Assembly (NCBI GenBank): GCA_021815365.1
Contig: JAKAGZ010000007.1
Coordinates: forward strand, 1 to 64,000
Origin: Bacteroidota bacterium
GTDB lineage: Bacteria; Bacteroidota; Ignavibacteria; Ignavibacteriales; Ignavibacteriaceae
Direction of reading: 5' to 3'
Length of the DNA: 64,000 nucleotides
Part shown: one piece after another, positions 2,160 through 59,327 of the stretch
How the letters are laid out: the number at the start of each line of letters is the position of its first letter
Position numbering within the stretch: position 1 is the first letter of the stretch
Made by a program: the position numbers and the translations under genes
The notes under the pieces: generated by a model
Told to the model about the DNA's origin: nothing
The model's database searches: none
What the model saw: only the letters and a program-made list of their open reading frames with translations

Positions 2160-3410
2160 ATGGAAAAATTAACTAAAGAACAAATTCACCCTAAAATTTT
2201 AGAGACTCTTCTTGCAGATACCAATATTACTGTTGATGATGCATTAGAGAATGAAATGGTGTTGAACATGGGTCCGCAGCATCCCGCAACACACGGTGTG
2301 CTAAGGGTTCTTTTAAGGCTTGATGGTGAGACTGTAATTTCAAGCGTACCCGAACTCGGCTACCTCCATCGCGGTTATGAAAAGATGGCAGAGAATATGT
2401 CCTACTATGAATTTATTCCTCACACCGACCGCCTTGATTATCTTTCACCGATGGCAAATAATGTTGCATGGGTCTTAGCTGTTGAAAAACTTGCCGGGAT
2501 CGAAGCTCCGCCCAGAGCGCAATATATCAGAATGATCATTGCAGAGCTTGCGAGAATAGCTTCTCACCTGGTTGCAATTGGCGCTCTTGCAATGGATGTT
2601 GGTGCTTTAACAGTTTTTCTCTGGACACTAAGGGAAAGAGAAAAAATTCTCGATGTGTGGGATATACTCTGTGGTGCGAGGTTCACGAACAGCTATACAA
2701 GGATTGGCGGAGTTGCTAATGATGCACAGCCTGAAGCTCTTGCAAAGATAAGATGGTTCATTGATCAGTTTGAAGAAAATATGGATGAATGCGAAAGGCT
2801 GCTGAATTCTAACAGAATATTTGTTGAAAGACTGGACGGCATCGGAGTTATTTCAAAAGATGATGCAATTGATCTCGGAATGACTGGACCAAGTTTAAGA
2901 GGCAGCGGCGTCGAATTCGACCTGAGAAGGAATACACCTTATCTCTTCTACAAAGATATGGATTTCAGAGTTGTTACATATAATGAAGGAGATGCATTAG
3001 CACGTTACTTTGTCCGCGCTGACGAAACAAGAGAAAGTGTAAAAATCATCCGTCAGGCTCTTGATAAACTTCCGGGCGGCGATGTTCTGCTCAATCAACC
3101 TAAGAAAGTTCTTCCTAAGAAGACAGAAATTTATTCAAGAATGGAGGAACTCATTCATGATTTTATGATAGTTAATTTTGGGATAAACCCGCCTGAAGGA
3201 GAGATATACAGTGCTATTGAAGGTTCAAAAGGGGAGCTTGGATTTTATTTTGTCAGCAAAGGCGATGGTAAACCATGGAAATGTAAGATCCGCTCGCCTT
3301 CGTTTGTTAATCTTCAGTCACTTTCTAAATTAATAAACGGTCACATGGTCTCTGATGTTGTGGCGATTATCGGAAGTATAGATCCTATTATGGGTGAGGC
3401 GGATAAGTAG
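2160..3410 (+). CDS. nuoD: NADH-quinone oxidoreductase subunit D
   Basis: This is the 49-kDa-type subunit that forms the quinone pocket with NuoB. The 416 residues include MGPQHPATHGVLRVLLRLDG (about 38-57), ELGYLHRGYEKMAE, and HTDRLDYLSPMANNVAW. The latter two contain the histidine and aspartate/tyrosine region lining the quinone site. The C-terminus ends DVVAIIGSIDPIMGEADK, close to the usual DPIMGEVDR. A 30-residue N-terminal extension precedes the conserved core. Its stop codon abuts the left arm of the inverted repeat that bounds the inserted four-helix-bundle gene. Confidence 0.96.
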   Translation: MEKLTKEQIHPKILETLLADTNITVDDALENEMVLNMGPQHPATHGVLRVLLRLDGETVISSVPELGYLHRGYEKMAENMSYYEFIPHTDRLDYLSPMANNVAWVLAVEKLAGIEAPPRAQYIRMIIAELARIASHLVAIGALAMDVGALTVFLWTLREREKILDVWDILCGARFTNSYTRIGGVANDAQPEALAKIRWFIDQFEENMDECERLLNSNRIFVERLDGIGVISKDDAIDLGMTGPSLRGSGVEFDLRRNTPYLFYKDMDFRVVTYNEGDALARYFVRADETRESVKIIRQALDKLPGGDVLLNQPKKVLPKKTEIYSRMEELIHDFMIVNFGINPPEGEIYSAIEGSKGELGFYFVSKGDGKPWKCKIRSPSFVNLQSLSKLINGHMVSDVVAIIGSIDPIMGEADK

Positions 3411-3916
3411 TCATTGGTAATTTGTAATTGGTAATTTGTGGTTAAAAATTACTAGTGCTTGAGATTATAATTAACTGAATCACAATTTATAAAAAGGGAG
3501 AATTTAAATGATCTTGAAGTTTACCAATTGTTTGTGGATGTATCTGACGAAATTTGGAATCTGGTGATTGAGTGGAAATCATTTGAAAAATATACAATTG
3601 GGACTCAATTTGTTAAAGCAGCGGATTCAATCTCTGCAAATATTTCTGAAGGTTATGGCAGGTATTCTTTCAATGAGAATAAACAATTTTGCTATTATGG
3701 AAGAGGTTCATTATCTGAAACTAAAACCTGGCTTGACAAAGCCTTTAGAAGAAATATAATTACCGAAAATACTTATAAAAATTTATTTGAAAAATTGGAT
3801 CTAAATCATATAAAGCTTAATGCCTATATAAATTCTATAAAAAGGCAGCAAACACTTTAACGATAGCGTTTATGTAAATACGATTGACTAATTACCAATG
3901 ACCAATTACTAATGAC
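3410..3916. mobile_element. inserted cassette: 27-bp inverted repeats around a four-helix-bundle gene
   Basis: Bases 3410-3436 and 3890-3916 are inverted copies of one 27-base sequence with 24 matches. They are built from the words gtcatt, ggtaatt and attggtaatt. The left arm begins at the last base of the nuoD stop, and the right arm contains the nuoE start codon (3912). The enclosed gene belongs to a family known from intervening sequences in 23S rRNA. The arms could fold into a long stem in the nuo transcript. I saw no unambiguous target duplication, so whether this is a mobile unit is inference. Confidence 0.6.
3528..3860 (+). CDS. four-helix bundle protein (23S rRNA intervening-sequence / S23 family)
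   Basis: The product has the hallmarks of the small helical IVS-encoded family: SDEIWNLVIEWKSFEKYTIG, then QFVKAADSISANISEGYGRY, then a final helix with SLSETKTWLDKAFRRNIIT. Function is unknown; homologues sit in 23S rRNA insertions and as stray genomic copies. Only a TTG start is available here. The expected N-terminus (NLNDLEVYQLF) is encoded in frame upstream at 3501-3533, after an aaaaaggga ribosome-binding-like sequence, but it has no ATG. The ATG at 3508 is out of frame, so the start has probably been damaged. The gene separates nuoD from nuoE and has nothing to do with complex I as far as can be seen. Confidence 0.7.
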   Translation: MFVDVSDEIWNLVIEWKSFEKYTIGTQFVKAADSISANISEGYGRYSFNENKQFCYYGRGSLSETKTWLDKAFRRNIITENTYKNLFEKLDLNHIKLNAYINSIKRQQTL

Positions 3917-4394
3917 TAACTTCAAATTCACAGAAGAAAACTTAAAGAAAATAGACGAGATAATTAAAAAGTATCCTGTTAAGAGACCCGCGGTGATGCC
4001 GGTGCTTTATATTGCACAGGAACAAAATGGCTGGATCAGCCAGGAAGTAATGCTGGAGGTTGCAAAAATTCTCGACATGCACCCTGAAGAGGTTCTTGGG
4101 ATAGTTACTTTTTATACAATGTATTATCAGAAGCCGATGGGGAAGTATCATATTCAGGTCTGTACAAATGTTTCGTGCATGCTTCGCGGCGCTTATGAAA
4201 TTTATGACAGAGTAAAAGACAAACTCGGTATTGGCAATATGCAGGTAACCGGAGACAAAATTTTTTCACTCGAGGAAGTTGAATGTATGGGGTCCTGCGG
4301 CACTGCACCGATGATTGCAGTCAATGAAGATTATTATGAAAATCTTTCTAAAGAAAAAGTTGAAGAAATTTTAGAATCTTTAAAGAAGAGTTAA
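3912..4394 (+). CDS. nuoE: NADH-quinone oxidoreductase subunit E
   Basis: This thioredoxin-fold subunit carries the [2Fe-2S] cluster N1a next to NuoF. In its 160 residues the four ligands appear as C84 and C89 (VCTNVSC) and C125 and C129 (ECMGSC). The N-terminal helical region carries KRPAVMPVLYIAQEQNGWIS, also typical. The start codon lies in the right arm of the inverted repeat around the inserted gene, and no ordinary ribosome-binding site precedes it. Translation may therefore have been altered by the insertion. The stop directly abuts the nuoF ATG. Confidence 0.95.
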   Translation: MTNFKFTEENLKKIDEIIKKYPVKRPAVMPVLYIAQEQNGWISQEVMLEVAKILDMHPEEVLGIVTFYTMYYQKPMGKYHIQVCTNVSCMLRGAYEIYDRVKDKLGIGNMQVTGDKIFSLEEVECMGSCGTAPMIAVNEDYYENLSKEKVEEILESLKKS

Positions 4395-58579: not shown

Positions 58580-59327
58580 GAAAATTTTTTATTTGTCACT
58601 TTTCATTTGTCCTTTTTTAATTTCCCAAACAATTAAACCAAGGATATCTGTTCAGAAAGTAGAACATGACTTTGGGAGTTCTGCGGGTTCGTATACTTTT
58701 CTGATATATAACAGCGGCGGCGGGGTGTTGAAAATTAATAAAGTGCGCACAACCTGTAGCTGCCTCACGACCAGCCTTGATAAGAATGAAATACCGATGG
58801 CTGATTCTGCTAAATTAACTGTAGATTTTTCAGGCTCTAACGGAAAGGGACAAATGCTGGAATATATTTATGTTTCTACAAATGACGAAACAACTCCTGA
58901 GCTGAGATTAACAGTAGCAGCGGATAAACAAATTCCCCCTCTGATTTTTCCAAACTTGTCAAGTTATGATTCAACAGGTAACAAGAAGGAACGACCGGCA
59001 GATTCTCCAATAATCTATTTTGCAGAAACCTCTCATGACTTTGGTGCTGTTACAAAAGGTAATGTTGTAGGTTTTAACTTTACTGTTATGAATAAAGGTA
59101 AATCAAAACTGATAATTAAAAGGATAAGGACTTCCTGTGGATGTACGGCAGCTTTGGCAGATAATAATACAATCGAACCAGGTAAGAGCACAATAATTCA
59201 TACTGAATTTGATTCTTCATTTTTGGACGGCAAAATACACCGGACTATTGAGGTTATATCAAATGACCCGCTTAGTGAAAAAACTATATTGAACATTTAT
59301 GCAGATGTAAAACCAGGATCAAACTGA
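58572..59327 (+). CDS. secreted protein with two DUF1573 (Ig-like) domains
   Basis: The 251-residue protein has a signal peptide (about 1-18). It carries two DUF1573 repeats (about 30-115 and 145-245), each with the pattern HDFG...G..V...F...N.G...L.I...R.(T/S)CGC-like: [12 protein letters not shown] and [13 protein letters not shown]. The cysteine pairs sit where metal or disulfide roles have been suggested for the family, but function is unknown. It is translationally coupled on both sides (8-base overlap with tsaB, 1-base overlap with accD). Confidence 0.85.

Follow-up and report, generated by a model that had tools for sequence, protein, structure and literature searches.

A 23S rRNA intervening-sequence-type gene between inverted heptamer arrays in a nuoD–nuoE spacer, and a possible class of mobile element associated with PF05635 proteins

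What is a gene of the 23S rRNA intervening-sequence protein (IVP, or S23) family doing between nuoD and nuoE, inside a complex I operon? The intervening sequences (IVSs) of rRNA have reportedly been called selfish since 1990–93, with no known way of moving. Structures of S23/IVP family members have been available since 2006, to our knowledge with no function attached to them. Arrays of heptamers between genes are on record for Calothrix, Nostoc, Xanthomonas and other bacteria, and we know of no agent that has been named for them.

In the stretch of 64,000 nucleotides analysed here (the window), the open reading frames of nuoD (2160..3410, + strand) and nuoE (3912..4394, + strand) are separated by a spacer of 501 nt, from the nuoD stop at 3410 to the nuoE start at 3912, which holds a PF05635 open frame (3474..3860, + strand) in the sense orientation. 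The nuoD–nuoE gap is mostly 6–40 nt among 30 relatives, so the 501 nt represent an insertion; the first-pass annotation had proposed this, and the comparison of spacing bears it out. The ORFs neighbouring the element encode nuo products, an ABC ATPase and a large glycosidase-like protein. There is no transposase inside the element, where a profile search returned PF05635 alone and did not find an HUH (Y1) tyrosine transposase.

The insertion is bounded by two inverted arms, delimited by inverted-repeat alignment, TRF and a period-7 scan. The left arm (3408..3439, + strand; TAGTCATTGGTAATTTGTAATTGGTAATTTGT) consists of about four degenerate heptamers T[AC]ATT[GT]G, and the right arm (3887..3918, − strand; reverse complement TAGTCATTAGTAATTGGTCATTGGTAATTAGT) carries the same unit, reading inward. 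Both are tandem arrays for which TRF gives a period of 7 (ATTGGTA on the left, TGACTAA on the right), with the G-rich strand directed inward, and they are complementary at 28 of 32 positions. Their local-alignment score of 22 is reached by 0 of 2000 dinucleotide shuffles, the maximum of which is 14. The inverted repeats matching at 24 of 27 positions that had been noted earlier are therefore real, but they are longer than described and are heptamer arrays rather than one pair of 27-mers. The host genes extend into them: the left arm opens with the nuoD stop codon TAG (3408–3410), and the nuoE ATG (3912–3914) lies inside the right arm, as had been recognized. The first codons of NuoE, M-T-N-F, derive from the arm, while in relatives with an empty site they are mostly M-E-F. 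In the period-7 scan of the 64-kb window only these two arms pass the threshold. A tandem-repeat row of period 14 at 58584–58623 falls within coding sequence and has nothing to do with the element.

When the segment is folded as RNA, the arms pair as an outer stem in both the MFE and the centroid structure (z = −2.87), in line with the earlier suggestion that they could form a long stem in the transcript. Segment 3408–3918 is probably an IVP element, in which inverted arrays of a short unit, mostly of 7 nt, enclose a PF05635 gene on both sides. As its site is nuoD–nuoE and not an rRNA gene, it is an IVS-type element in an mRNA spacer rather than an rRNA IVS.

The open frame matches PF05635 (23S rRNA intervening-sequence protein; E = 7e-27) and TIGR02436 (E = 3e-25). 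AlphaFold models the protein as a four-helix bundle, which superposes on Xcc0516 (2gsc) with a Z of 18.8 and an rmsd of 1.4 over 110 residues, confirming the initial assignment to the four-helix-bundle family of 23S rRNA insertions. The model also resembles Avd (4dwl, 8ub7, 8ub8; Z 14–15 over 107–111 residues, identity about 10%), with Z values above the helical-bundle background; a shared fold shows no function. Homology to relatives runs from about 3498, with codon 2 at about 3501. Most aligned close homologs begin with M[K/N]LEEL or similar, while in the window a Shine–Dalgarno-like GGGAG directly abuts codon 2; the frame has no in-frame ATG, and the nearest in-frame alternative start is a TTG at 3528. 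Since the remainder of the frame is intact, the ATG was probably lost recently, or else a non-standard start is in use. Because the start codon is missing, the window copy is probably a decaying relic that is no longer autonomous.

Are such arms a property of the family? A set of 206 distinct IVP loci with both flanks was assembled, drawing on the window's genome, on its order and phylum, on plasmids of cyanobacteria and on many further phyla, and an arm pair was called where the left flank aligned with the reverse complement of the right flank at SW ≥ 16. Inverted arms are found at 103 of the 206 loci (50%), which are non-independent and fall into 79 context clusters, the largest with 65 members. 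At the same threshold, flanks compared in direct orientation match in 9.7% of cases, flanks taken from different loci in 0.9%, and those of random 380-bp intervals from the regions holding the IVP loci in 0.3%. Read inward, 93% of the arms are G-rich (mean skew 0.55), and 68 of the 103 fit a period of 7 nt best, 20 one of 8 nt. The pattern is present in the phylum of the window, in Cyanobacteria, Proteobacteria and Planctomycetes, and in others. The arms are a component of the element. About half of the loci have no clear arm pair at the SW threshold, so arms decay or are at times dispensable.

The first-pass annotation had suggested that the 27-bp arms might be found around other family members. 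In part they are, as half of the loci are armed, but with degenerate heptamers specific to each clade and not with a conserved 27-mer. When these 27-bp arms were sought around other IVPs, only the arrays of this one unit were recovered; since the arms are clade-specific degenerate arrays, a 27-base search would miss the pattern. It is the repeats, not a 27-mer pair, that are the cognate arms of the family and the more important part of the observation. The AT-rich region and the simple unit would suit an inverted repeat that arose by chance in low-complexity DNA flanking an ordinary gene. The probability of this is negligible, however, as the shuffles and the excess of arms around IVP genes over random intervals rule it out.

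The arms of close homologs of the window IVP (45–62% identical, from many genera) are built on the motif GTCATT with spacers of 1–4 nt; in the left arm of the window it lies at 3410–3415. Counted over the loci of this clade, GTCATT is present in the arms of 22 of 22, and in both arms of 20, across six separate insertion contexts. There are 5.2 inward copies per locus and no outward copies. By comparison, one of 64 further IVPs from the window's order has the motif (Fisher test for both arms, 1e-17). The arm motif is therefore inherited together with the IVP protein clade. In the broad set, the arms are similar in 21% of pairs at different sites where the proteins are at least 60% identical, against 2% in an orientation control, and in 6% against 2% where they are 50–60% identical. 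Over all pairs, the relation of arm similarity to protein identity is weak beyond close relatives and clear within a clade. As the relation in the broad set is limited to close pairs, the units change fast in other clades. In two genomes (G128:C1:2809551-2811511 and G129:C1:1189966-1196549), GTCATT arrays recur on one strand every ~100–120 bp over several kb, as a higher-order tandem array of the element's repeat.

The nuoD–nuoE junction is occupied in several relatives. One genome (G014) has an orthologous element whose IVP contains an in-frame TAA, and another (G123) has a further IVP element of the window's clade. Two others (G018 and G025) carry a second IVP subfamily there, 36% identical to the window IVP over the aligned part and 47% between themselves, with arms that differ from those of the window (AAGTTTA; ATTATGAGCA). 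Gene-less arrays or hairpins are found at the same junction at six loci (L095, L096, L099, L109, L110 and L111). Given these different subfamilies and arms, alongside the gene-less arrays and hairpins, the junction has been struck more than once. At one of the six (L110, in G027) the IVP-less hairpin is of the CACAAAGACACAGAG type, and the arms of the IVP at L048 carry a similar unit, CACGGAGT.

An alternative reading is that the insertion is a domesticated regulatory hairpin, selected by the host because it uncouples nuoD from nuoE. The same IVP clade does sit at this site in the window's genome (G000), in G014 and in G123, and in Xanthomonadaceae orthologs of Xcc0516, flanked by GGGAATC-type arms, persist with intact reading frames throughout the family at accB–accC (gene names from flanking protein sequence). 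Domestication is nevertheless quite improbable, as most relatives have no element at nuoD–nuoE, the copy in the window has lost its start codon and that in G014 has acquired an in-frame stop, and other relatives carry different arms and a different subfamily at this very site. What the long residence of orthologous copies at nuoD–nuoE and at accB–accC does indicate is that movement is not frequent.

Arrays of the same units also occur away from any IVP gene. Four arm patterns were counted in seven genomes, as windows and not as elements, since hits overlap within an array, and the resulting matrix is almost diagonal. Three successive GGGAATN units are hit 399 times in X. arboricola, a genome with a single IVP, and 0 times in the six others; this Xanthomonas unit, GGGAATC, is the published quadruplex-forming (G4) heptamer (PMC4692102). 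For GTGAATN ×3 there are 54 hits in Oryzomonas, with its single IVP, 11 in a Flavobacterium with an IVP armed in this way, 4 in the window's genome and 0 elsewhere. GTMATTN ×3 gives 38 in the window's genome and 2 elsewhere, and the 15 hits of GTGATCT ×3 are confined to one genome. The Oryzomonas hits form ten convergent pairs and no divergent ones, nine being compact IVP-less hairpins and one enclosing an IVP. In the genome of the window, the GTMATTN unit is present at seven loci, six of them without an IVP, and two of those six are convergent hairpins. Gene-less cognate arrays and hairpins are thus dispersed in genomes that carry the matching IVP. The same genome contains a second array family (G000:C43:3513-4884; GTGAATAGTGAATGGTGAAT), and the contig that carries it yielded no PF05635 gene.

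The abundance of IVP-less arrays, with hundreds of copies in Xanthomonas and others at nuoD–nuoE itself, could be taken to mean that heptamer arrays are independent, satellite-like repeats, and that IVP genes are passengers which have landed in pre-existing hairpins. Plasmids of Nostoc that are ~91–96% identical to one another bear on this directly. Their junction A either is an empty site of 3 nt or holds an IVP element of 420 nt with GGAGTCA arms, and junction B is either empty (0–3 nt) or filled with 505 nt (GGGAAAA arms). Junction C consists of 52 nt, of an IVP element of ~490 nt (GGGAACA arms), or of IVP-less hairpins. A consistent target-site duplication was not seen at the three junctions, the candidates TTCTAG (A) and TAATG/TTATG (B) being inconsistent. 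Contrary to what passengers would predict, the empty junctions A and B are without any repeat in sister plasmids, and the IVP and its arms are present together when the sites are filled. The tracking of the arm motif with the IVP clade across six contexts, and the near-confinement of cognate arrays to genomes whose IVP has that unit, point the same way.

There is one element in these plasmids that does lend the passenger reading some weight. It is 182 bp long, has no IVP, bears the GGAGTCA arms of junction A and is found in 98 places in 43 Nostocales plasmid records, once (L201) inside an IVP gene. It has fixed ends of its own (TTGAAG...TTTGATAA), no target-site duplication was found in six copies, and it may be moved by something else. 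Taken together, the evidence leaves the passenger explanation decidedly unlikely. A copy of the 182-bp element in Calothrix brevissima NIES-22 plasmid1 (L328, 81–264) lies between two CDS annotated RarA, a rarA-like gene seemingly being split. In Nostoc p057_H (L204, 1597–1938), an AAATTCA heptamer hairpin has an inner GTGGGGGCTTGAACCC core like that of the 182-bp element, with other arms, so that core and arms may recombine.

Alternatively, an unrelated transposase acting in trans, such as HUH TnpA or RAYT working on hairpin ends, might move the element, with the IVP as cargo or regulator. We know of no nuclease or recombinase residues in PF05635, and this lack of a catalytic signature is what such a scheme would lead one to expect. 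It would also account for the fixed ends of the 182-bp element, and the hairpin ends, compact IVP-less hairpins and want of an evident target-site duplication are REPIN-like (PMC3116915). On the other hand, the joint inheritance of motif and protein points to the IVP as the recognizing factor, and in two genomes that contain tens to hundreds of arrays precisely one IVP is retained, its arms matching those arrays. A transposase in trans is therefore unlikely.

We propose, tentatively and at somewhat less than even chances, that PF05635 proteins are the cognate specificity factors of an unrecognized class of mobile element found across bacteria. Such elements would combine an Avd-like pentamer with inverted, clade-specific heptamer arms, would have no known transposase, might move through structured RNA, and would seed hundreds of IVP-less hairpins. 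The class would unite rRNA IVSs, the short tandemly repeated heptamers (STRRs) of cyanobacteria and the G4 heptamers of Xanthomonas. A pentamer is the known assembly of the family (Xcc0516) and of its structural relative Avd. In a narrower reading, which is the probable one, the IVP would bind its cognate repeat motif as a pentamer, either in the stem of the element RNA or in the corresponding DNA, and this specificity would allow the element to spread in trans, along with arrays of its unit that have no IVP. The protein is probably expressed from the host operon. Among co-directional neighbours, IVP genes are in sense in 49 of 54 contexts and antisense in 5 (p = 4e-10), a bias that would fit selection for transcription with the host operon or movement via the sense RNA. 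One of the few antisense cases lies between two ribonucleotide reductase subunit genes in Nostoc edaphicum pNe_5 (L138, 1480–1848). Insertions would survive where a hairpin is harmless, as at the tips of rRNA helices and in gaps between stop and start codons. By analogy with rRNA IVSs, the stem in the nuo mRNA may be a substrate for RNase III, which would sever nuoD from nuoE without ligation.

The co-inheritance of motif and clade, genomes with one gene and many arrays, and natural empty sites provide a common, testable explanation for rRNA IVSs, orphan four-helix-bundle genes and heptamer repeats. PF05635 has been reported in cas operons (PMC3936711), and in plasmid pANA02 of Anabaena sp. 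90 cas6 and cas4 are separated by an IVP with GGTGACA/GGGAACA arms (L135, 1513–1881); this suggests that the PF05635 genes reported from cas loci have been inserted there and are not part of the cas gene set. PF05635 genes within operons in general, those of cas included, are better taken as insertions than as operon components.

Among known systems, the closest are the 23S rRNA IVSs with an S23p/IVP ORF of Leptospira, Coxiella and Brucella (PMC4990558), which share with the window element the protein family, a length of ~430–500 nt, complementary arms and a sense ORF. They differ in that the host RNA in the window is an mRNA spacer and the start codon is lost, and excision by RNase III is proposed there by analogy. 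In the Coxiella IVS, GACAGAT heptamers reportedly occupy the 5′ arm ahead of the S23p ORF, and the stem is a site of RNase III cleavage (PMC4990558). An IVP of Azospirillum AZO_p2 (L141) lies inside a 23S rRNA gene between heptamer arms of the GGACGGATGACAGA type, and PF05635 genes are also reported from inserts in the rRNA of CPR bacteria (PMC11270868). The layout recurs in many mRNA spacers, and the elements in mRNA and in rRNA seem to be of a single kind that occupies different hosts. In the openly accessible literature that was searched, no text outside the Coxiella IVS was found to tie IVP/S23 to heptamer repeats.

STRRs are a known class of cyanobacterial repeat. Heptamer arrays of GGGAACA, GGGAGTA, GGGTGTA and GGTGACA form the arms of plasmid IVPs; these are arrays of this kind, and a link between STRRs and IVP genes was not found in the literature searched. 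STRRs are cited for Calothrix in the study of GGGNATC quadruplex-forming heptamers of Xanthomonas and Nostoc (PMC4692102). The latter are likewise G-rich heptamers in convergent inverted pairs between co-directional genes, but most copies are without an IVP, and no link to IVP/S23 genes or mobile elements was found in the passages of that paper that were searched.

Homology between Avd and PF05635 has been suggested earlier (PMC10053308). Avd, of the diversity-generating retroelements (4dwl, 8ub7, 8ub8), has the same fold as the window IVP and acts in a complex of RNA and reverse transcriptase, being part of the reverse-transcriptase RNP in 8ub7 and 8ub8; beside the window element, neither a reverse transcriptase nor a template or variable repeat was seen. 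In the REPIN–RAYT system (PMC3116915), the gene is an HUH tyrosine transposase and the repeats are REP palindromes, whereas IVP is an unrelated four-helix bundle and the repeats of its elements are tandem heptamers. The likeness lies in the arrangement, with one repeat-flanked gene, many dispersed, cognate, gene-less hairpins, and specificity between gene and repeat.
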